From contig JAHHHI010000074.1 in NCBI GenBank assembly GCA_019359435.1, positions 1 to 64,000 of the forward strand: DNA of 64,000 nucleotides, written 5' to 3'. Below the pieces are notes generated by a model. The model did not search any database and was not told the origin of the DNA. It worked only from the letters and a program-made list of their open reading frames with translations. The translations under genes were made by a program, and so were the position numbers. Source of the DNA: Kaiparowitsia implicata GSE-PSE-MK54-09C (GTDB lineage: Bacteria; Cyanobacteriota; Cyanobacteriia; Elainellales; Elainellaceae). Shown here piece by piece: positions 24,285 through 64,000 of this stretch (position 1 is its first letter; every line of letters starts with the position of its first letter).

Positions 24285-25811
24285 GTGAAATTACGGTGGA
24301 TTCTGCCCGGATTTCTGGGTGTTGTGGGTTCCTTGCTGGTGGCGATGTCGGTCGAGGCAGGCACGCTGCAGTCCTGGCGGTTTAACCCGTCAGCCAATCA
24401 GTTGGTGTTTACCACCACGGATGGCGTGCAGCCTCGGGCACAGCTGATTGCCAATCCCACTCGATTGGTGATTGACTTGCCCGGCATTAGCCTGGGGCAA
24501 TCGACCCTGCGGCAAACCGTGGGTCGCGGCATTCGCGAGGTGCGAGTGGGGCAGTTTGAAAACGAAACAACCCGCATGGTAATCGAACTGGAGCCGGGCT
24601 ACACGATTGACCCGGATGGGGTCATCATTCGGGGCGCGACGCCGACTGAATGGTCGGTTCAGCTGCCCACGCCGCAGCAGGTGGCAATAAACCCTGGCAA
24701 CGGCAGCCCCGCTCCCTCTACGCCGCCGGCTAACGGGGCAACCCGGGTAGACGGTCTGCAAGCCACCAACGACGGCTTTATTTTGCAAACTAGCGGTGGC
24801 GTGCCCAGTGCCCGCTGGGATCGAAGCCGCGATCGCCGTCAGCTCACCCTAGAACTCTCCAATGCCTCTCTATCGCCGCAACTGGTCGATCAGGCCATGG
24901 CGCTGAACCGCAACGGGGTGCAGCGAGTAGAATTTAGCCAACGAACCGGGCGATCGCCCCGCGCTCGCGTCATCTTTCACTTGAGCGATCGCGACAGCGG
25001 CTGGCTAGCTAATGTGCGCAGCAATAGCGGCATTGTGCTGGTGCCCACTCGGCGCGATCGCGACGAGGTGCTGGTGTCTCAAGACCCCATCACTCGGCCT
25101 ACCCCTACCCCTACCCCTACCCCTGCCCCTGCACCACCGCGTCCCACACCGGCTCCCGCTCCCGCTCCCGTGCCGCCGCGTCCGGCTCCGGCTCCGCCTC
25201 CTCAGCCTGCACCGCCGCCTGTGGTGACGCCGCCTCCTACGACACCGCCCCGCGTTCCCAATAGTCGCATTGTGGTAGCCATCGACCCAGGGCATGGCGG
25301 CATTGACCCCGGCGCCGTGGGCATTGGTGGGCTACGAGAAACCAACGTAGTCATGCCCATCAGTCTAGAAGTCGCGGCACTGCTAGAGCAGCAAGGCATT
25401 CAGGTGGTGCTGACGCGACGCGACGAAAGCCGCACAGTGGATCTAGCTCCCCGCGTTCAGATTGCAGAAGCTGCTCGTGCCAATATCTTTGTCAGCATCC
25501 ATGCCAATGCCATCAGCATGAGCCGCCCCGATGTCAATGGCATTGAAACGTACTATGCATCGGAATCTGGGCGGGTGCTAGGGCAATATATCCACAACAA
25601 TCTGATTCGTTCAACTGGGATGAACGATCGGGGGTTGAAGCGGGCTAATTTCTACGTGATTCGTAACACCTCGATGCCAGCCACGCTGCTAGAAGTGGGG
25701 TTTGTAACGGGTGCGCAAGATGCACCTCGCCTCGCCACCCCACAATTCCGCAGTCAACTGGCAGCGGCGATCGCCCAAGGCATTTTGCAATACGTGCAGC
25801 AAAACCTATAG
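24285..25811 (+). CDS. N-acetylmuramoyl-L-alanine amidase with AMIN domains (AmiC-like)
   Basis: A 508-residue exported peptidoglycan amidase. A GTG start at 24285 with AGAGG 6 nt upstream gives a signal peptide (residues 1-25, ending VEAG). Two AMIN-like beta domains follow (about 27-120 and 150-260); these target septal peptidoglycan. A low-complexity Pro/Thr/Ala linker built on a tandem DNA repeat (about 25099-25130) leads to the Amidase_3 domain. Zinc ligands are His337 (DPGHGG), Glu352 (RETN) and His406 (SIHANA); catalytic Glu470 is in LLEVGF. All are present. It cleaves the amide bond between MurNAc and the stem peptide, for cell separation or septal-junction formation in filaments. Confidence 0.95.
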   Translation: MKLRWILPGFLGVVGSLLVAMSVEAGTLQSWRFNPSANQLVFTTTDGVQPRAQLIANPTRLVIDLPGISLGQSTLRQTVGRGIREVRVGQFENETTRMVIELEPGYTIDPDGVIIRGATPTEWSVQLPTPQQVAINPGNGSPAPSTPPANGATRVDGLQATNDGFILQTSGGVPSARWDRSRDRRQLTLELSNASLSPQLVDQAMALNRNGVQRVEFSQRTGRSPRARVIFHLSDRDSGWLANVRSNSGIVLVPTRRDRDEVLVSQDPITRPTPTPTPTPAPAPPRPTPAPAPAPVPPRPAPAPPPQPAPPPVVTPPPTTPPRVPNSRIVVAIDPGHGGIDPGAVGIGGLRETNVVMPISLEVAALLEQQGIQVVLTRRDESRTVDLAPRVQIAEAARANIFVSIHANAISMSRPDVNGIETYYASESGRVLGQYIHNNLIRSTGMNDRGLKRANFYVIRNTSMPATLLEVGFVTGAQDAPRLATPQFRSQLAAAIAQGILQYVQQNL

Positions 25812-55142: not shown

Positions 55143-55706
55143 ATGACAGCCCAAATTCTAGTTGAAAAAAAGAAACTTAAGCAGCCGCCTTTGAAGTTGC
55201 ACTACTTGGGCGATCGCGTGCTGCGCCAGCCCGCCAAGCGCATCACCAAGGTTGATGACGAGGTGCGGCTGTTTGCGCGGCAAATGCTGCAAACCATGTA
55301 TAGCGAAGACGGCATTGGGCTGGCTGCGCCCCAGGTAGGGGTAAACAAGCAATTGATTGTGATTGACACAGAGTTAGACAACCCAGAAGCACCACCGCTG
55401 ATTTTGATTAACCCCAGCATTGTGAAATCTGGTGAAACGCTGTGTGCCCTGCAAGAAGGGTGCCTAAGCGTACCCGGTGTGTATATGGATGTGGTGCGGC
55501 CTGAGGTGATTGAAGTTAGCTTTAAGGATGAAATGGGACGCCCACAGCGTCGTAAAGCCGATGGGCTGCTGGCACGAGTCATCCAGCACGAGATGGATCA
55601 CCTCAACGGCGTTATGTTTGTGGATCGGGTTGATAATTCCCTAGTGCTCAACCAAGAGCTGTCGAAGCATGGTTTCTCGGCTCAAGCGGTGAAGGCTGTT
55701 TCCTAA
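55143..55706 (+). CDS. def: Peptide deformylase
   Basis: A 187-residue metalloenzyme that removes the formyl group from new proteins. All three motifs are present: GIGLAAPQVGV (about 57-67), EGCLSVP with metal ligand Cys107, and QHEMDH with ligands His149 and His153 and catalytic Glu150. A basic N-terminal extension of about 15 residues precedes the core. Length is normal. A strong hairpin follows 54 nt after the stop. fmt is not adjacent. Confidence 0.97.
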   Translation: MTAQILVEKKKLKQPPLKLHYLGDRVLRQPAKRITKVDDEVRLFARQMLQTMYSEDGIGLAAPQVGVNKQLIVIDTELDNPEAPPLILINPSIVKSGETLCALQEGCLSVPGVYMDVVRPEVIEVSFKDEMGRPQRRKADGLLARVIQHEMDHLNGVMFVDRVDNSLVLNQELSKHGFSAQAVKAVS

Positions 55707-55899: not shown

Positions 55900-56196
55900 G
55901 TGGGGACTCTAGGTGCGGCTTTGGTTTTGCCGCTAGTGCGTGATTGGGCGATTGGTTCAAAAATTATTGAAATTGTTATTACAGAGGCGAGGCGTGACGT
56001 GACTCCAAAAAGTGGTGGACTGTTGATGGTGTCTTGTGTGGCGGCGATCGCCGCAGTGGGTAGTGTATTCGAGCTGTCGTCTGGGGTGCCCGATTTGGGC
56101 ACGCCGGTCACAGCCGGGATTTTGGCGTTGAGTATTCCTGCCACAATCGTCAGCTTTTATGCGGCAGTGCAAGATGCTCGCGCGAATCAGCGTTAG
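55900..56196 (+). CDS. Small membrane protein of unknown function
   Basis: A 98-residue frame starting at GTG 55900; no upstream ATG is in frame, so the start is unsure. A first hydrophobic stretch at residues 3-12 precedes an amphipathic helix (SKIIEIVITEARRD). Two membrane spans follow at about 40-60 (GLLMVSCVAAIAAVGSVFEL) and 66-90. The C-terminus is short and basic. It reads as genuine protein but I do not recognise the family. It follows the def terminator and precedes the FHA-PrsW gene on the same strand by 143 nt. Confidence 0.65.
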   Translation: MGTLGAALVLPLVRDWAIGSKIIEIVITEARRDVTPKSGGLLMVSCVAAIAAVGSVFELSSGVPDLGTPVTAGILALSIPATIVSFYAAVQDARANQR

Positions 56197-56339: not shown

Positions 56340-57647
56340 ATGGATGAGACTCCTCAAGGGGCGGTGCTGCGGCAAGTCTCGCCAGAGGACGGGCAAGGAG
56401 TCGTTCATCTGCTGACGTTAGGGGAAGACGCCGTGATTGGGCGAGAGCCAGACTGCCACATTGTGTTGGATTCTGCCACCTATCGCGGCGTGTCGCGCTA
56501 TCACCTCAAGCTGCAGGCAGTCAGCCGAATCGGCTGGCAGGTCTGTGACTTGGGCAGTACGAACGGAACCTATATCAACGGACGGCGAGTGCTGGGCTGT
56601 CGGACGGTGCGTTCGGGCGATCGCATTGCACTGGGGCATCGAGGGCCACAGTTCTTGTTTGAGCCTGTAGCGGCGTCATCACCCGTTGCCGTGAGGACAG
56701 GGGAGCGATCGCCCATCCACATTCCCCAAGGCGAGCGAGTCACGGCCAGCCAGCTGTTCCCGCTGCTTTCTACCGAACACGATTGGGTTCAAAAAGCATA
56801 TCTGCTGCCGGGTTTGCTCACGGTATTTTGCGTCGCGCTACTCTTTGTGGCGGTGGGCGAACCGTTGCTGTTTAACGGACTGCTGGCTGGCTATCTAGGC
56901 GCAGCCGCGTATTTCGTGGTGTACCAACTTTGCGGTAAGCCCAAACCCTGGTGGCTGCTGCTGGCAGTCGCAGGATCGACGATGCTGCTGCTGGCGAGCC
57001 CAGTGCTCGACGCCTTCTCGTTTGTATTTCAGCAGGTGCTCCCGGGTCAGCTTATGTTAGACGCATCTCCCACGCTGGCACAGCTGTGGGTGGGCATGTT
57101 CTTTGGGGCGGGCCTGATGGAGGAACTGCTCAAGGCGATTCCGGTGCTTCTGCTGGCGGGGCTAGGGCTAATGAAGGGAAATAGTTTGAGCGATCGCCTC
57201 ACTGTTCGAGAGCCGCTAGACGGCATTTTGCTCGGGGCAGCTTCGGCGGTGGGCTTTACGTTACTAGAAACGCTGGGCTACTACGTTCCCGATTTAATTC
57301 AGGTTTTAGAATCTCAATCTGGCTACGATATCGGACAACTTTCAGGACTCCAGCTCCTCATTCCCCGCATGTTGGGGTCGATTGCTGGGCATATGGCCTA
57401 CAGCGGCTATTTTGGCTATTGCATTGGCCTAAGTATGCTCAAACCGGGGCAGCGCTGGCGAACGCTGCTTGTGGGCTATTTGATTGCAGCACTGCTGCAT
57501 ACCCTATGGAACGTGAGCGGCATAGTAAACCTGCTGCTATTGCCAGTGGTGGGCATGGCGTCCTATGCGCTGTTGATGACGGCCATCCTCAAGGCTCGGG
57601 CGTTGTCCCCTCAGCGGCACATAAACTTTGCCACACGGATTCACTAA
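56340..57647 (+). CDS. FHA domain fused to a PrsW-type intramembrane protease
   Basis: A 435-residue fusion. Residues about 25-105 form an FHA phosphothreonine-binding domain with all key residues: Arg35 (IGREPDC), Ser52 and His55 (GVSRYHL) and Asn75 (STNGTYING). Eight or so membrane spans follow with the PrsW-family motifs: Glu261-Glu262 and Lys265 (MEELLKAIP), Phe306 and Glu310 (GFTLLETLGYY), His351 (GHMAYSG) and His387 with Asn391 (LLHTLWN). PrsW cuts membrane-bound substrates in other bacteria, such as an anti-sigma factor in Bacillus. The FHA domain could recruit phosphorylated substrates. Kinase, phosphatase and CHAT-FHA genes occur in the same window. Confidence 0.93.
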   Translation: MDETPQGAVLRQVSPEDGQGVVHLLTLGEDAVIGREPDCHIVLDSATYRGVSRYHLKLQAVSRIGWQVCDLGSTNGTYINGRRVLGCRTVRSGDRIALGHRGPQFLFEPVAASSPVAVRTGERSPIHIPQGERVTASQLFPLLSTEHDWVQKAYLLPGLLTVFCVALLFVAVGEPLLFNGLLAGYLGAAAYFVVYQLCGKPKPWWLLLAVAGSTMLLLASPVLDAFSFVFQQVLPGQLMLDASPTLAQLWVGMFFGAGLMEELLKAIPVLLLAGLGLMKGNSLSDRLTVREPLDGILLGAASAVGFTLLETLGYYVPDLIQVLESQSGYDIGQLSGLQLLIPRMLGSIAGHMAYSGYFGYCIGLSMLKPGQRWRTLLVGYLIAALLHTLWNVSGIVNLLLLPVVGMASYALLMTAILKARALSPQRHINFATRIH

Positions 57648-57663
57648 CGGTTTTCCCAAACCG
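57648..57663. terminator. Short hairpin between convergent genes
   Basis: The arms 57648-57653 and 57658-57663 pair perfectly around a 4-nt loop, directly at the PrsW stop codon. The stem is only 6 bp, so this is weak. Confidence 0.35.
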
Positions 57664-57705
57664 GGTCTATAGAAATAGGAATCACCCAGTACCCGTTAAG
57701 CATCC

Positions 57706-58329
57706 TTAGGCATCGTCGGGAGTAGACTCAGCCAGCGCCACACGGGCGATCGCCAGACTCAACCGCGCCTGCTCGATACTCGACAGTTTCGACCATTCTG
57801 TGCAGCGAACCGACTGCAGCACGCCGTTTACAGGCTCGGTGCCTGCGCCGTCACGCATTGCATAGGCAAAGGGGCGAGCCAGCACAATCAAATCATCTTC
57901 GTTCCACTCGGTGAGCACTGCCTGGACACACAGCACCAGTTGATCGGAAAGCGAGCGATTTGTCGCAGAGACCTGTTTCACTTGAGCCAGAATGCGATCG
58001 ACAATAGCAGCCGGAACCTGAGCCGTAAATCGCTGCCACAGCGGGGCCGAAGCTCCAGACATGGCGCTTGCTGCGGGCGCGGGGCGATCTGCCCACACCT
58101 GATCAACGGTGGCCGTTAGCGACTGCACATAGGGTGACCAGTCTTCACTCTGCCATCCATCTGCAGCCATTTCCTGTTCTAATGCGTCGAAGTATTCAGA
58201 TGAACTTGCTTCAGCAGGGTCCCACACATAAGGCGTTTCACGCTGATTTAGCAACAGTTGCAGCAGCTCTAGCTCTGCCTGCGCCTGAAACGGGGTGAGG
58301 GATGGACGGTGGTGAGAATCGCTAGTCAT
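57706..58329 (-). CDS. Hypothetical helical protein
   Basis: A 207-residue soluble-looking, mostly helical protein without signal or span. FQAQAELELLQLLLNQRETP opens it, and the middle has LWQRFTAQVPAAIVDRILAQ and DQLVLCVQAVLTEWNEDDL; the C-terminus is KLSSIEQARLSLAIARVALA. I do not recognise it, but it looks like a conserved cyanobacterial protein. It lies between the FHA-PrsW gene (convergent) and the CHAT-FHA gene (same strand, 306 nt upstream), so it may belong to the same signalling group. Confidence 0.75.
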   Translation of the reverse strand: MTSDSHHRPSLTPFQAQAELELLQLLLNQRETPYVWDPAEASSSEYFDALEQEMAADGWQSEDWSPYVQSLTATVDQVWADRPAPAASAMSGASAPLWQRFTAQVPAAIVDRILAQVKQVSATNRSLSDQLVLCVQAVLTEWNEDDLIVLARPFAYAMRDGAGTEPVNGVLQSVRCTEWSKLSSIEQARLSLAIARVALAESTPDDA

Positions 58330-58635
58330 AGGTCAAAGCAGTCTCCAGAAATGCGCCGGTAGTGAAATGTCAACATCATTGGCTACAAGGCTCGCTGTGG
58401 CAGTTCCGCAAGTGGCTAGAAAATTATTCAGCCCGTCCCTCAAATGCGCTGCCCCCCTAAGGATGGTTTGAATGATAAGGCATTTATAGGAAAAAGGTGA
58501 GGTAACCCAGACCCCTAAGCGGTCGGTGGTTCACCGATTCCACCGCGCCTCTATGAGAAGCCATGTGGGGGCAATCCCATGTCCTAAGGATGCTGACCTT
58601 ATTGTTTAGGATCTCGCTGGTCTTAAACAGAGTTG
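58330..58635. other. Gap between two minus-strand genes
   Basis: About 306 bases without a gene. It should hold the promoter of the 57706-58329 gene. A short imperfect GGATTGCCCCCACATGG-like pairing near 58560-58600 is not convincing. Confidence 0.35.
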
Positions 58636-60279
58636 TTAAGAATCTTCAAGCCGGAATTCCAGCTCATGGGTGCCTAAGCGAAGTCGGGTGGGTGAGCTCA
58701 GGGGAACTTCCTGCTGATGCACCCGCAGCCACTGGCTGTTGACCCCCTGTAGCGAGGTGCCATAGCGAGAGCGATCGCGCAAAAAATAGCCCGCCGCCTC
58801 ACCGGTTTGGACTCCGGCTCGGTACACAATTTCGGCATGTTGTCGCGATACCCCCGTGCCGCCCCGCAACACAGCGTCGTTGCCGTCTTGGCTGCCAATT
58901 CGCATCACCCCGCCATACACCCGCCAAGATTGTCCTGCGGGCTCAATGGAATGCAGCACGGCTGGCGGAAAGTAGGGCTCGATCCAACTATCTGGATTAT
59001 TGGGGATTTCGGTGATGCCATCGGTCAAGGGTTTGACCAATTCACCGTTAAATTCTGGGTGCATGTAGAGCACCGGCAGCGTCCAGGTGACATGGTTGAA
59101 CTTAAACAGGAATAGCAAGTGCTGCCGGGCGATCGCCACGGCTTCATCAATGGGCGATCGCTCCACTAACGCCTGCACCACCTGTTGAATAAAGGCATAG
59201 GCCTCGGGGTCAGCAATGGTATCGCGCATACCCAACACCGCCGGCACCCCATGGTGAATCAAAACCTCTGCCAGGCTGCTGCGGGGCAAGGCTAACCCAT
59301 CTTGCTCATCAGGCTGGGCTCCCCAACAGGCATTGAATAGCGCCAGCTTGACTTGGCAACGGGTGAGCACCTGCGCCAGTTCTGTGCCGCTCAGGGTGGC
59401 GTCGGGGCGCAGATAGAGCTGCCCCCCGCCTGGCCCTGGCATCCCGTGCCCTGAGTAAAACAGCACATTAAAATGGCGGGTTTCAAGATGCGCGGTCAAC
59501 TCGGCCGGAGTCGGCTGCACGAGCACCGTCACCTCGCAGGGCACCGGAGGCGGAAAGCGCGTCGTCTGGTTAGAGCTGGCGGCGCGCAGCACCTCAGCAA
59601 TGGCCAACGCCTCTTGCTCCAACGCTAGCTTAGAGCTGCCGTGCTCCGATTGCGCCTGCGACTCTGCGTTAGGGTTCATAGCGTCGGCTGTCACCGTCTC
59701 CTGACCCTGCACAAGCAAAATCTTAAGGGCATAGTCCTCTTTCTGGGGCGCGAGGGTGCTCACCTCATTAGTAGTGCGGCTAAACAGCACGCGTTGGTTT
59801 ACCCCCACTGCAGGCATCCCCGACTGCGGCTGCATGATTTCCCACGGCAGCATCACCAATTCGGGCGATCGCACCTCTAACCGCAGTCGCAACGGCTGAC
59901 TGCGGCCCCGCGACACCCCTCGGCTTTGCTCAAAGCTCGTGTGGGTCGGGCCATCAAAGACCCATTGCCAGAGGTTTACCCCCAAGTGCTGCATCAACCG
60001 AGCTGAATAACTGGTCGCCGCTGCCGGATCGGGATTGGCAGAAAACACAATATCAGGAGGCGGAGCATTGGCCGAAGCGGCCCGTAAGGAGAACAGCGCC
60101 TGCCAGGCCTGCCAGGTTTGGGTCAGCTCGTTGCCCCAATGCTGCACATGGTGCACCAACCCCGCCTGCAGCGGCGCTTGAAGCACCCAAATTGCATAGT
60201 GATCGGCCTCTGCCTTGACCGCCAGGCTATCAATTGCCAATCGCAAACACGGAAACCCATTAGAAGAGTGGTCAGACAT
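58636..60279 (-). CDS. CHAT-domain (caspase-like) protein with C-terminal FHA domain
   Basis: A 547-residue protein from the ATG at 60279. The CHAT peptidase domain (about 130-410) holds the catalytic pair His278 (LFYSGHGMPG) and Cys318 (ALFNACWGA). It ends with VPAVLGMRDTIADPEAYAFI and DEAVAIARQHLL, the normal CHAT finish. The C-terminal FHA domain (about 440-545) has RIGSQDGN, VSRQHAEI and DRSRYGTSLQG; Arg460, Ser478 and His481 are present, but Tyr506 replaces the usual Asn. CHAT proteins cleave other proteins in cell-death or defence pathways. The FHA domain would bring it to phosphoproteins. It has no signal or span, so it is probably cytosolic. Confidence 0.92.
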   Translation of the reverse strand: MSDHSSNGFPCLRLAIDSLAVKAEADHYAIWVLQAPLQAGLVHHVQHWGNELTQTWQAWQALFSLRAASANAPPPDIVFSANPDPAAATSYSARLMQHLGVNLWQWVFDGPTHTSFEQSRGVSRGRSQPLRLRLEVRSPELVMLPWEIMQPQSGMPAVGVNQRVLFSRTTNEVSTLAPQKEDYALKILLVQGQETVTADAMNPNAESQAQSEHGSSKLALEQEALAIAEVLRAASSNQTTRFPPPVPCEVTVLVQPTPAELTAHLETRHFNVLFYSGHGMPGPGGGQLYLRPDATLSGTELAQVLTRCQVKLALFNACWGAQPDEQDGLALPRSSLAEVLIHHGVPAVLGMRDTIADPEAYAFIQQVVQALVERSPIDEAVAIARQHLLFLFKFNHVTWTLPVLYMHPEFNGELVKPLTDGITEIPNNPDSWIEPYFPPAVLHSIEPAGQSWRVYGGVMRIGSQDGNDAVLRGGTGVSRQHAEIVYRAGVQTGEAAGYFLRDRSRYGTSLQGVNSQWLRVHQQEVPLSSPTRLRLGTHELEFRLEDS

Positions 60280-60370
60280 CAATACACCACACTGAACACC
60301 ACACTGACCAGCAACGCCCTCACTCCAAGACCTACTGCTTATACACAATCTTGGCCCTTACACAATCTTG

Positions 60371-60478
60371 GCCCTCACCCCCTCAGTCCCCCTCGCCCAA
60401 AAATGGGCGAGGGGAGGCCAAACAAGGCTTTTCGGCCCCCCTTCTCCCAGAACAGGAGAAGGGGTTGGGGGATGAGGA
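60371..60478. repeat. Pyrimidine/purine-rich double-hairpin element
   Basis: Two strong hairpins in tandem: 60389-60399 with 60404-60414, and 60438-60447 with 60455-60464. Outer flanks (CCTCACCCCC on the left, GGGGGATGAGG on the right) can also pair. This composition is typical of multicopy intergenic elements in cyanobacterial genomes. A 17-nt tandem duplication (ACACAATCTTGGCCCT) precedes it at about 60345. It lies between PP2C and CHAT-FHA genes, both minus strand. Confidence 0.7.
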
Positions 60479-60757
60479 AAAAGCTCTGGTCGCAAGGGTT
60501 TCAGGACTTATCTATACACAGTAGCTCCAAGACAGACTCTTACGTCTGCGCGAGGCCTGTTCCATTTGGGGCGCACCACCGCGCCCATAACAGGCTCAAA
60601 ACTTCGTTCCATCTAGTCAGGGCCACAACTCAGGAGACAGTGCAGATCTAGTCTATCTGGTTATCTTCCTGCGCCCCAAACTAATAACCTAAGAATCCCA
60701 GCATTTCTGAGTTGGATGTTTTGAAGGGCGATGGATCAAAGAGTGGGACAGTTGGCC

Positions 60758-63400
60758 TTACCCCAACGGCTCTAGAGGCTCGGCTGGACTTGGTTCCAAG
60801 GGGCTAGTTGGGTCTGCGGGGCTAGGCGTCGCCTCCCCGTTAGGAGCAACGGGATCGGTAGCACACCGCCCCTGCTGTTCTGGCGTCAGGTTTTGGTTTA
60901 GCCGCCATCGGGTAGAAAGGATGGGTTCTGCAACCCAGCCTACTTCGCCCGCCTGCACCACCGCTTCCGGTGGGAGAGGCGGGTCAGGCTCAGCATTTAA
61001 TGCCGGGTCTGGCGCTGCATTTGCACCTGCGGGATCGGCCAGCGGCGGGGTCTGCGTCGTCCCTACGGGCTGCGTCAGCAGGTCTGTCCCAACTGAGCAG
61101 ACTCGCACCTGTAGCCAGCGATCGGGCAGCACGCCTTGCTGGCTCACCAGTTGCAAAATGCTACCCGGAGGCACTCGCTTGGTGAGGGCATTCAGTGGTG
61201 TATCTGCGGGCAGTTCTGGCACTGGCGCATCTAGCCCTGGGTCACCTGGCGATGCGGCGGTGGGCGGTGGGCTAGGAAGATTGGCGGAATCAGGTGGATT
61301 GGCAAACGGAGCAGCAGGGACGTCAGCAGAGGTCGCAAAGGGCGGCTGAGGCGACAGAACAACGGGCGGCGCTGTGGGATCTGCGCTGCGCCCTAGCTCG
61401 ATGAGCGCGCCTGGCTGAAGCGCTTGGGCCGGATCGGGATCGGGATCGGGAGCCACGGGGCGGGGCGATCGCCCTAAGAAGGCATCTAGCCGATCAGGCG
61501 CATAGCGCGACAGCAGATAGAGCCCCCCTGCCCCCAGTGCGAGCACCAGCAGCAGCGCGCCTAACAGTGACAGTAAGGGCGATCGCCGGGCAGGTAGGGC
61601 GGCAGGTGCCACCCGCTGAGTTTTGGCACTGGCAGCATCGGGCTCACCCGAGAGGGCGTGGGCCGGCGGCATCCAGGTCGCCTGAGGCGAAACTGCCGGG
61701 GCGCTGGGGGGTATAGCATTCGCCTTCACCGGTGATGGGGTAGACCGATGGGCAGCCTCTACCTGGCAGTGCAAAATGCCCAGGGTCACATTGTCATGCC
61801 CATTGAGGCGATTGGCCAAGTCAACCAGCCGTTGGCAGGCCACACCCAGATCGACCTCGCGTTCACCGCGTGACCCAGCGTCAGACGGCTGCAGGGATGC
61901 CAGTAGCGGAGCCAGTTCTACGTCCCAAAACTGCTCTACCCGATCACCATCGCTCAGACCATCGGAGCACAGCAGCACAATGCAGTCTTCATCTAGCACG
62001 AACCGCTGCACCGTGGGGTGCAATAGCGCTGAATCGTTCATGCCCAAGGCCTGGATCAGGGAACCTGAGCTGGGATGCTGCAAAGCTTCGCGGTGCAGAC
62101 TATAGCCCAGCCGCACCTCGCGGGTCGCCACATCATCATCCAGGGTGATTTGATGGCAGCCTCGGCGGGTAATCCAGTAAGCGCGGCTGTCGCCCACATG
62201 GGCCAGATACAGTTCATGCTGGCGCACTAGCCCCATAACGAGGGTTGTGCCCATGCGCTGGCGATCTTGTCGCTGTTCACTATCGTTGCGCTGGCTAATC
62301 TGATTGTTGGCAGCGGCGGTCGCCTGTATCAACGCGTGGTGAATGGCGTCGGGTTCTAGGTTAGCCAGCGGGAGCGGTTGCACATGCTGCTGAATGGATG
62401 CGATCGCCAGTCCCGATGCAACATCGCCCCCTTGGTGTCCGCCAATGCCATCGCAGACAATCACCATGGGCGCAGCCCCCTCTGCCAGTTGCGTCGGCAG
62501 CGTCTGGCTGACGGTGCCGCTGGGGGGATAGCAGGCGTCTTCGTTGCGGGCGCGGGTTGGGCCTTTGTCGGTGGCGGTTGCGAGGGAAATGGTGCGGGGG
62601 ATGGATGGGGCGATCGCCCTAAGCTGCTGATCCAATTCAACAGTCACCTGAGCCGCACTAGAGAGACTGCCATCGACCAAGGCTTGGCTCAGGTGCTGCA
62701 CCCCTGCCGCAACCGTGGGGTGCGCGGCAGTCGCCCACTGTTGCCACAGTCGGCCCAAGTCTGGCAGAGTGGCGATCGCCCCTGGCTGATCTGGCTGCAG
62801 TTCTAACAGCCGCACGAGGGACTCTTCTACCCGAATCAGCTCTGGGTTGAGCAGGGTCGATGCCACCTGTTCTACGCTGAGAGGCTGCCATAGGTTGGCC
62901 ATTTGCCAGAGCCAGTTGAGCTGGCGCTGGGGCGAGGCGGTGGGCCAATCTTGGGCGATCGCTGGCAATGGATAGACCTTCTCCAGATCACCCGATGCCG
63001 AAGACACCGTTTCGCCAGAGCGCGGTACCCAGACTGCTGCCCCTTCTAATAGCACTAACAAGGCCCCAGGCGCTGCTGCATCAGGCACCACGGCATCATA
63101 AAGTTGGGGCACATGCACCCGCTGGGGCATCAGCCGCAGATAGGTGAGCCATGACTCAGGCAGTCGATCCGCCGATGCCGTAGGGTAGTAGCCTGGCAAT
63201 GTATCCAAAAAGATGCGATCGCCCTGATAGAGATAGCGGTTGGCGACCATCGCTCCTGCTGCTAGCCCTGAAGGGAACACACCCACTCCCCACAAATAGT
63301 GCTTGGGCAGTGGCACACCACAGGTTTGGCAGGTTCGCTGGGTTGGCGAATTAGGCGCTTGGCACGATTGATTGGGGCAGTAGAGCATCGGTTGGGGCAT
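60758..63400 (-). CDS. Zinc-ribbon PP2C phosphatase with membrane span and SH3-like tail
   Basis: An 880-residue multidomain protein. Residues 8-27 are a four-Cys zinc ribbon (Cys8, Cys13, Cys24, Cys27), as found at the start of many cyanobacterial Ser/Thr kinases. Residues about 40-260 may be a degenerate kinase-like domain. The PP2C domain (about 272-545) has Asp278-Gly280, RNED, DGIGGHQGGDVASG with Asp317, GDSRAYW, SDGLSDGD and GHDNVTLG with Asp536, so all metal Asp residues are present. A membrane span (608-631) leads to a Pro-rich linker and an SH3-like region (about 740-850). It removes Ser/Thr phosphates and may oppose kinases that feed the nearby FHA proteins. Confidence 0.92.
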   Translation of the reverse strand: MPQPMLYCPNQSCQAPNSPTQRTCQTCGVPLPKHYLWGVGVFPSGLAAGAMVANRYLYQGDRIFLDTLPGYYPTASADRLPESWLTYLRLMPQRVHVPQLYDAVVPDAAAPGALLVLLEGAAVWVPRSGETVSSASGDLEKVYPLPAIAQDWPTASPQRQLNWLWQMANLWQPLSVEQVASTLLNPELIRVEESLVRLLELQPDQPGAIATLPDLGRLWQQWATAAHPTVAAGVQHLSQALVDGSLSSAAQVTVELDQQLRAIAPSIPRTISLATATDKGPTRARNEDACYPPSGTVSQTLPTQLAEGAAPMVIVCDGIGGHQGGDVASGLAIASIQQHVQPLPLANLEPDAIHHALIQATAAANNQISQRNDSEQRQDRQRMGTTLVMGLVRQHELYLAHVGDSRAYWITRRGCHQITLDDDVATREVRLGYSLHREALQHPSSGSLIQALGMNDSALLHPTVQRFVLDEDCIVLLCSDGLSDGDRVEQFWDVELAPLLASLQPSDAGSRGEREVDLGVACQRLVDLANRLNGHDNVTLGILHCQVEAAHRSTPSPVKANAIPPSAPAVSPQATWMPPAHALSGEPDAASAKTQRVAPAALPARRSPLLSLLGALLLVLALGAGGLYLLSRYAPDRLDAFLGRSPRPVAPDPDPDPAQALQPGALIELGRSADPTAPPVVLSPQPPFATSADVPAAPFANPPDSANLPSPPPTAASPGDPGLDAPVPELPADTPLNALTKRVPPGSILQLVSQQGVLPDRWLQVRVCSVGTDLLTQPVGTTQTPPLADPAGANAAPDPALNAEPDPPLPPEAVVQAGEVGWVAEPILSTRWRLNQNLTPEQQGRCATDPVAPNGEATPSPADPTSPLEPSPAEPLEPLG

Positions 63401-63605: not shown

Positions 63606-64000
63606 TTAACCGTCAGATTGGCTCCAGAGGCTCTGATCGGGGGTGAGCTGGGGTGGCAATTCCCCTGTTTCGACCTGAGCGCGGAGGGTCTCTGGGTCGC
63701 CCCAGGCCACTAGTTCTAAATAGGTGCGGCCTACACCAAGGCAGGTGCCCGCCTGATCAAAGACTTCAATCCACCCGTCGTCACCATCGGTCTGCACCCT
63801 TACGATCAACAAGCGGCGCTCGTCGACTGTGGTTCTGTGCAGCGTCACGGAGCCCCAGTCGCGCTCCATCACTGTTTTGGCGTAGTAGTCATAGGCGGCT
63901 TGCACGGGCGTAGGCAGCGGTTGGGTTGCGGGGGCGATCGCCCCGCCTGCATCCCCAAAGCTGATCTGCTCAGGCTGATCAGTTCCCTGTTGATAGGCGG
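63606..64000 (-). CDS. Hypothetical protein, partial (cut by the window end)
   Basis: A minus-strand frame open from 64000 to the stop at 63606-63608; about 130 codons are visible and the start lies beyond the window. A GTG at 63905 is internal to this frame, and the reading frame continues upstream without a stop. AYDYYAKTVMERDWGSVTLH, RLLIVRVQTDGDDGWIEVFD and LGVGRTYLELVAWGDPETL read like a genuine soluble protein. I do not recognise the family. It lies 205 nt upstream of the PP2C gene on the same strand. Confidence 0.7.
   Translation of the reverse strand, partial: AYQQGTDQPEQISFGDAGGAIAPATQPLPTPVQAAYDYYAKTVMERDWGSVTLHRTTVDERRLLIVRVQTDGDDGWIEVFDQAGTCLGVGRTYLELVAWGDPETLRAQVETGELPPQLTPDQSLWSQSDG

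Follow-up and report, generated by a model that had tools for sequence, protein, structure and literature searches.

The analysis presented here concerns a window of 64,000 nucleotides from the cyanobacterium Kaiparowitsia implicata GSE-PSE-MK54-09C (contig JAHHHI010000074.1, positions 1 to 64,000), and within it four genes at 56340-63400 that encode an FHA-PrsW protein, a 207-residue protein designated U207, a CHAT-FHA protein and a zinc-ribbon PP2C phosphatase. An earlier note on this DNA had described them as a candidate module in which phosphorylation controls proteolysis; the open reading frames (ORFs) lie where that note had placed them, and the Pfam matches agree with its account of the gene set and domain make-up. 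The features are as follows.

56340..57647, + strand: FHA-PrsW, with an N-terminal FHA domain (residues ~32-99) and a PrsW-type intramembrane protease domain (~202-413), recognized from Pfam, residues and hydrophobic segments.
57706..58329, - strand: U207, 207 aa, predicted to be all-helical, assigned to no known family and almost always inherited along with CHAT-FHA.
58636..60348, - strand: CHAT-FHA, a 570-aa ORF with a HetF-type CHAT (caspase-like) domain (~121-440) and a C-terminal FHA domain (~483-559); because the alignment of orthologues begins only near residue 29, translation more probably starts at the ATG at 60279.
60758..63400, - strand: the PP2C protein, with a zinc ribbon, a pseudokinase-like domain, a PP2C domain, one hydrophobic segment and a Pro-rich tail.
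62585..63265, - strand: residues ~46-272 of the PP2C protein, a pseudokinase-like domain recognized from Foldseek, VIA-align and a profile match.
63266..63400, - strand: the zinc ribbon of the same protein, with its four Cys (C8, C13, C24, C27).

The unit at this locus is CHAT-FHA together with U207. Among 194 genomes of the class Cyanobacteriia, U207 was found in 94, CHAT-FHA in 94 and both in 93 (phi 0.979); the gene that the earlier note had offered as a possible partner is thus the closest partner of CHAT-FHA, present in 93/94 genomes. The two lie no more than 5 kb apart in 75 of the 93 genomes, on the same strand in 75/75 and in 17 of 21 families. Both have also been kept in 15 genomes where they are on different contigs and in three where 0.5-1.1 Mb separates them on one contig. 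These counts take the best match in genomes with several and are uncorrected for relatedness; the strongest safeguard in this respect comes from the genomes in which the two genes are unlinked or have been re-linked. Omitted from the counts are one weak match of U207, in G159 (E=1.6e-4), and three of CHAT, in G154, G219 and G245, which are HetF-type ORFs scoring 223-240 bits; these last three genomes, with a HetF-type protein and no CHAT-FHA, have no U207. The exception with CHAT-FHA and without U207 (G296) is a metagenome-assembled genome of 1200 contigs. An overlapping sample of 146 genomes of the phylum gave U207 in 37/37 genomes with CHAT-FHA.

The arrangement of the genes was compared at 80 CHAT-FHA loci, all cyanobacterial, which rank highest among 436 confirmed matches and are therefore closer to the window than the family as a whole. 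A U207 gene adjoins CHAT-FHA in 63 of them and a PP2C gene is found upstream in 51; a convergent PrsW gene is present in 28 and all four genes occur in 18, with several contigs stopping too early for the neighbours to be judged; PP2C is present in 47 of the 65 loci with more than 3 kb upstream, and U207 in 61 of the 74 with more than 1.5 kb downstream. Gene spacings, which rest on mechanical starts, have a median of 123 bases from PP2C to CHAT-FHA (51 pairs, the extreme being a 41-base overlap) and of 157 bases from CHAT-FHA to U207 (63 pairs, three in swapped order). At the Laspinema loci L203, L211 and L230, U207 stands before CHAT-FHA rather than after it, still adjacent and co-directional. 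The order PrsW> <U207 <CHAT-FHA <PP2C recurs in several families of the 146-genome sample, and linkage, whose repetition across distant genera the earlier note had named as support, is found in many families and is not confined to close relatives.

PP2C is a frequent neighbour of this unit, and PrsW an occasional and looser one. A PrsW query comprising residues 116-435, with which an FHA domain was not required, matched in 120/194 genomes, with a phi of 0.29 with CHAT-FHA and 0.32 with U207; 22 of the 94 CHAT-FHA genomes are without a PrsW match and 48 of the 120 PrsW genomes are without CHAT-FHA. PrsW lies within 5 kb of U207 in 43/73 genomes, always convergently, and in 7/19 families. It is because of these weak values, set against the near-complete co-occurrence of CHAT-FHA with U207, that we count PrsW as an occasional associate; the two FHA-proteases are not the tight pair that had been supposed.

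CHAT-FHA matches the Pfam families CHAT (PF12770; 7.3e-18, 65.4 bits, cut-off 24) and FHA (2.4e-09). The NCBIfam model CellDiv_HetF matches over residues 121-439 only (E=1.2e-41), and its 142.9 bits miss the equivalog cut-off of 1200 bits for a model of 836 positions. In a tree of 23 CHAT domains, 14 CHAT-FHA proteins form one clade (94/83), four HetF-type proteins form its sister clade (98/94) and five other CHAT proteins fall outside (99/98); two of the four HetF-type members score 1480.2 bits and, under the cut-off, 795 bits against the HetF model. Judged by these sequence comparisons, CHAT-FHA is the sister group of HetF and belongs to the HetF clade of CHAT proteins. Its catalytic dyad, His301/Cys341, is present in 81/81 rows and in 35/35 of a second set. 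The protein has no hydrophobic segment and no TPR in the Pfam scan. Its gene occurs as one copy per genome, and where a family has it the family has it throughout, without a patchy pattern.

FHA-PrsW matches Pfam PrsW (PF13367) at 7.2e-36 (124 bits, cut-off 23.5) and FHA at 1.1e-16, and misses the stricter NCBIfam PrsW equivalog with 21.2 of 225 bits. PrsW proteases are marked by EExxK and FxxxE motifs and by His residues, and here E261, E262 and K265 are found in 29/29 rows, E310 in 28/29, and H351 and H387 each in 27/29, the exceptions being confined to two short ORFs.

The two FHA domains differ. FHA domains contact phosphothreonine through a Gly-Arg pair, a Ser-x-x-His motif and an Asn-Gly pair. 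The PrsW-linked domain is canonical, with G34, R35, S52, H55 and N75 in 29/29 rows. In the CHAT-linked domain Gly485, Ser501 and His504 are present in 81/81 rows, the usual phosphothreonine-contacting Arg486 in 57/81 and the Asn of the TNG motif in 11/81; Arg486 is replaced by Ser in the window protein and by Phe in its family mate G011. Since the usual contacting Arg is a Ser here, recruitment of CHAT through phosphothreonine appears doubtful in this genome, and it cannot be what holds the unit together, because Arg-less relatives keep PP2C beside CHAT-FHA at least as often as Arg-bearing ones (17/20 and 30/45 respectively). We have accordingly rejected phosphothreonine binding as a common denominator of the two proteases, the Arg being lost from the CHAT FHA and the linkage kept. 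The canonical FHA of PrsW is in line with the earlier proposal of phospho-recruitment to both proteases; on the CHAT protease of this genome the phosphothreonine reader looks altered.

U207 belongs to no Pfam, NCBIfam, PADLOC or PHROGs family. Its AlphaFold2 model consists of helices only (mean pLDDT 81.5, pTM 0.58), and a Foldseek comparison of the model with known folds gave nothing at E<=0.001. Weak Pfam matches to Globin (3.9e-4, single member) and to a coronavirus polymerase (0.0065, two members) were taken as chance, and so was the resemblance of its profile to PDB entries for designed helical bundles (best E=2.0e-4). Once near-copies (more than 90%) and a short ORF had been removed, 57 of the 63 linked U207 proteins were aligned with that of the window; this alignment has five invariant columns over 58 rows, indicative of fast divergence around a short conserved core. 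The most conserved stretch, D146-L-x-V-L-A-R152-P-x-A155-x-A-M158-R159, stops together with its helix at 159, and the loop that comes next varies in length and in most cases has Gly first; A155 is present in 58/58 rows, and M158 and R159 each in 57/58. By analogy with other CHAT proteases, U207 is the first candidate substrate of CHAT-FHA. Separase- and orthocaspase-type proteases prefer Arg, and our guess would be a cut after Arg159, where A-x-x-M-R is followed by Gly, Ser or Asp at the end of a helix and before a variable loop. The cut in Csx30 follows a Leu (excerpt of PMC9729208), which weakens an Arg cut as a general rule.

The phosphatase matches PP2C_2 at 5.8e-12, with 46 and 37.4 bits to PF13672 and PF00481. 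The earlier statement that its metal residues are intact holds: D288, D317, G318, D404, D480, D536 and N537 are present in 52/52 matches, and a neighbouring His, H322, in 50/52. In two Moorena loci (L214 and L220) a Gln replaces the His of the PP2C GGH motif. The NCBIfam zinc-ribbon PP2C model PRK14559 gives 256.6 bits, below its cut-off of 374; the four Cys of the ribbon are found in all 48 rows that reach this part, four more rows being truncated, and the same four-Cys prefix also occurs on kinases of this genome. A hydrophobic segment lies at residues 604-622.

The front half of this protein has a kinase fold. Residues 1-272 were modelled with 44 sequences (43 of the 52 PP2C matches plus the window) at a pLDDT of 93.5, and residues 44-270 adopt this fold. 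With Foldseek three chains were found at E<=0.001, all of them kinases, with PknG first (E=1.3e-5, probability 1.00, TM only 0.49). VIA-align gave Z 9.9-10.7 to kinases in general over 170-196 residues, and Z 10.0-10.4 to PknG and to the pseudokinase of Rv3910 (MviN), which in one of the entries is in complex with the FhaA FHA domain; because rows within 1 Z tie, no closer kinship to any one kinase is claimed. Comparison by hhalign with the four-Cys-prefix kinases of the same genome (an alignment of 11 of 12 kinases) gave a probability of 88.5 % and E=2.7e-6. No kinase family is among the 25 Pfam families shown for the 44 front-half members, and the domain had stayed hidden from sequence searches. 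The HRD motif is present in 0/44, the kinase HRDIKP aligning to V-A-S-T-L-L-N-P; a loose D[FLM]G pattern occurs in 16/44, and by eye there is a later DLG in the rows printed. Given a kinase fold without HRD and with so loose a DFG-type pattern, we label the modelled domain pseudokinase-like. The kinase-like domain of Mycobacterium MurJ/MviN, once phosphorylated, is described as forming a complex with FhaA (excerpt of PMC6180346), and there is thus a precedent for a kinase-like domain docking on an FHA domain.

Several neighbouring features lie outside the unit. The ORF cut at 63606 runs past the window (63606-64115, 169 aa), has no Pfam or NCBIfam family and has no counterpart in the 40 loci compared; for these reasons we have rejected it as a unit member, and the earlier suggestion that it might be a partner or substrate lapses. 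At L126 (14188-14544) and 18 other loci, including those of family f6, G011, G062 and G005, the PP2C gene is preceded by ndhM (NDH-1 subunit M), and in the window this position is occupied by the unrelated 169-aa ORF. In the f6 loci (e.g. L126 4103-7475) the module stands beside a nitrate-reductase-like molybdoprotein, a PsiE protein and a nitrate-reductase-associated protein. FHA-PrsW is directly preceded by a peptide deformylase gene, def (55143-55706, + strand), which adjoins PrsW in G000, G005, G008, G011 and G129, from four families, and an unlinked U207 gene in G131; the 98-aa ORF between deformylase and PrsW (55900-56196, + strand) has a counterpart only in G011 among 40 loci compared. 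The 6.7-Mb genome has 17 kinases and eight FHA matches, two of which sit 2 kb apart at this locus. A second close FHA pair is found on contig C10 (G000:C10:22791-23935), where a kinase match at 24323-24943 shares a 491-aa open frame with the second FHA of the pair.

Our preferred reading is that the locus encodes a HetF-like protease and its partner, carried on the chromosome and controlled by kinase and phosphatase, with U207 as substrate or regulator, and we put its probability at about one half. Its core would be the CHAT-FHA protease, using its C-terminal FHA as a docking domain, and the dedicated small helical U207, whose genes are usually co-directional and often part of one gene string with PP2C. 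By analogy with HetF-PatU3 and TPR-CHAT-Csx30, U207 may be the substrate or a regulatory subunit, to which CHAT-FHA would bind. On one chain, probably anchored in the membrane, the phosphatase would join its zinc ribbon to a kinase-like domain that is catalytically dead and to a PP2C domain that looks active, and the FHA and the PP2C pseudokinase may place or tune the protease according to phosphorylation state; that state would be set by one of the Ser/Thr kinases of the cell, none being encoded nearby, and reset by PP2C. The convergent FHA-PrsW could be an older, looser associate, perhaps providing a second output at the membrane. Phospho-controlled proteolysis is thus a reasonable idea overall, and the interpretation offered in the earlier note is partly supported. 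A more specific version is speculative and, in our estimate, possible but doubtful: that this is a second HetF-type switch, independent of heterocysts, in which CHAT-FHA cuts U207 after Arg159 and the dead-kinase phosphatase times the cutting by docking on, and releasing, the FHA-proteases at the membrane.

A number of observations weigh against this reading. CHAT-FHA and U207 are not within 5 kb of one another in 18/93 genomes, G005 has U207, PrsW and PP2C with CHAT-FHA absent, and G123, in the 146-genome sample, has U207 without CHAT-FHA. A dedicated linked kinase was rejected, being found at just 3/80 CHAT-FHA loci. The FHA of CHAT-FHA has lost Arg486 in 24/81 rows, the 58-row alignment of U207 has no invariant Thr for an FHA to read, and the conserved Arg of U207 may be purely structural. 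Finally, this genome has five zinc-ribbon PP2C matches of the same architecture, and such proteins therefore exist outside the module.

Alternatively, U207 could inhibit or activate the CHAT protease, as a zymogen-type or antitoxin-like subunit, with the true substrate elsewhere. The obligate pairing, the fast divergence around a short conserved core and the all-helical make-up without a known fold would all suit such a subunit, as would the precedent of a caspase homologue from cyanobacteria whose cleavage target is an antitoxin encoded by the neighbouring gene (excerpt of PMC7935541); known CHAT neighbours are, however, mostly described as substrates (in the available part of PMC9729208), and we consider a purely regulatory U207 rather unlikely. 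The proposal that phosphothreonine marks bring substrates to both FHA-proteases and that PP2C erases them, U207 being a bystander or one of several substrates, draws on the canonical PrsW FHA (29/29), on the 57/81 CHAT FHA domains that have the Arg and the 81/81 that have Ser501 and His504, on the 17 kinases of the genome and on the linkage of the quartet in 18/80 loci. It has to accommodate, however, the loss of the Arg here and in 23/80 relatives with linkage kept, an Asn of TNG in only 11/81, and the large independence of PrsW and CHAT-FHA (phi 0.29), and it seems to us unlikely.

That the genes are neighbours by descent, in a slowly changing order without common function, is suggested by f6, in which the flanks are conserved as well, in stretches of ten or so genes around the unit; by the convergent orientation of PrsW, which makes an operon link impossible; and by the deformylase gene, which is also kept beside PrsW in several families. 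Because flanks are conserved inside f6, only the between-family comparison counts, and between families, at ten loci, 22/492 flanking genes are shared as against 138/143 module genes; only the flank figure is unbiased, because the ten loci were picked for at least three module genes. With this turnover, and with CHAT-FHA and U207 co-kept in genomes where they are unlinked, descent is largely refuted for that pair and may still apply to PrsW; as an account of the whole we judge it very unlikely. Most improbable is an anti-phage or conflict system in which CHAT would be the effector and U207 would confer immunity or serve to activate it. The conflict systems of cyanobacteria commonly include CHAT and caspase-like peptidases (excerpt of PMC7159879), but PADLOC models match 0/4 proteins, neither U207 nor CHAT-FHA has a PHROGs family, and CHAT-FHA is single copy, kept across whole families and set among housekeeping neighbours (ndhM, def).

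Several parts of the locus resemble systems that are already known. Zinc-ribbon PP2Cs have been described for Cyanobacteriota (PMC12088040), and the protein in the window shares the four-Cys prefix and PP2C domain of PRK14559, although it falls below the curated 374 bits and has in addition a hydrophobic segment and a Pro-rich tail; its kinase-like middle is not named in the part of PMC12088040 available. PrsW fused to FHA has likewise been reported (PMC3482391), the available part of that paper describing no linkage to CHAT or PP2C. In multicellular bacteria, the EACC1-caspase and MoxR-vWA ternary conflict systems likewise have peptidases of caspase-like type that are accompanied by small partner genes (excerpt of PMC7159879), but CHAT-FHA matches the EACC1-caspase model at E=0.065 only, and CHAT and PrsW are absent from the available text of that paper. 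We found no description in the open-licence literature of the combination of CHAT with FHA, with or without PP2C or PrsW, in cyanobacteria.

At the membrane, MviN (Rv3910) with FhaA and PknG with its FHA partners offer a kinase fold beside FHA proteins; here the kinase-like domain is instead fused to PP2C and the FHA proteins are proteases. The FHA partners of PknG are GarA and OdhI. Craspase (gRAMP/TPR-CHAT/Csx30) is similar in having a CHAT protease whose substrate is encoded by an adjacent gene, and CHAT substrates, Csx30 among them, are commonly encoded nearby (excerpt of PMC9729208). It differs in being CRISPR-triggered and in having TPR as the added domain where CHAT-FHA has FHA; no gRAMP (Cas7-11) or CRISPR genes were recognized in the Pfam scan of eight window proteins, which was not a dedicated CRISPR search.

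The closest parallel is HetF-PatU3 of Anabaena, in which the nearest CHAT relative of CHAT-FHA is a protease with a dedicated protein target, acting in cell division and heterocyst differentiation. To our knowledge few caspase-like proteases of bacteria have, as HetF does, both a role in development and a target that are known. HetF cleaves PatU3 (excerpt of PMC12288457, a review) and has a transmembrane segment and TPRs (excerpt of PMC8406250), whereas CHAT-FHA has no hydrophobic segment and ends in FHA; U207 has no family match and tracks CHAT-FHA rather than HetF. The regulated cutting system to which the co-inheritance of CHAT-FHA and U207 points seems not to have been studied before. Beside HetF-PatU3, it would offer a protease and partner of general occurrence that lie outside heterocyst biology and are open to direct testing, the protease being kept with one dedicated partner gene in about half of the Cyanobacteriia sampled (94/194); it gives a candidate function to the wholly unannotated U207 family, and with it comes a phosphatase that has a kinase-like domain in the same chain.

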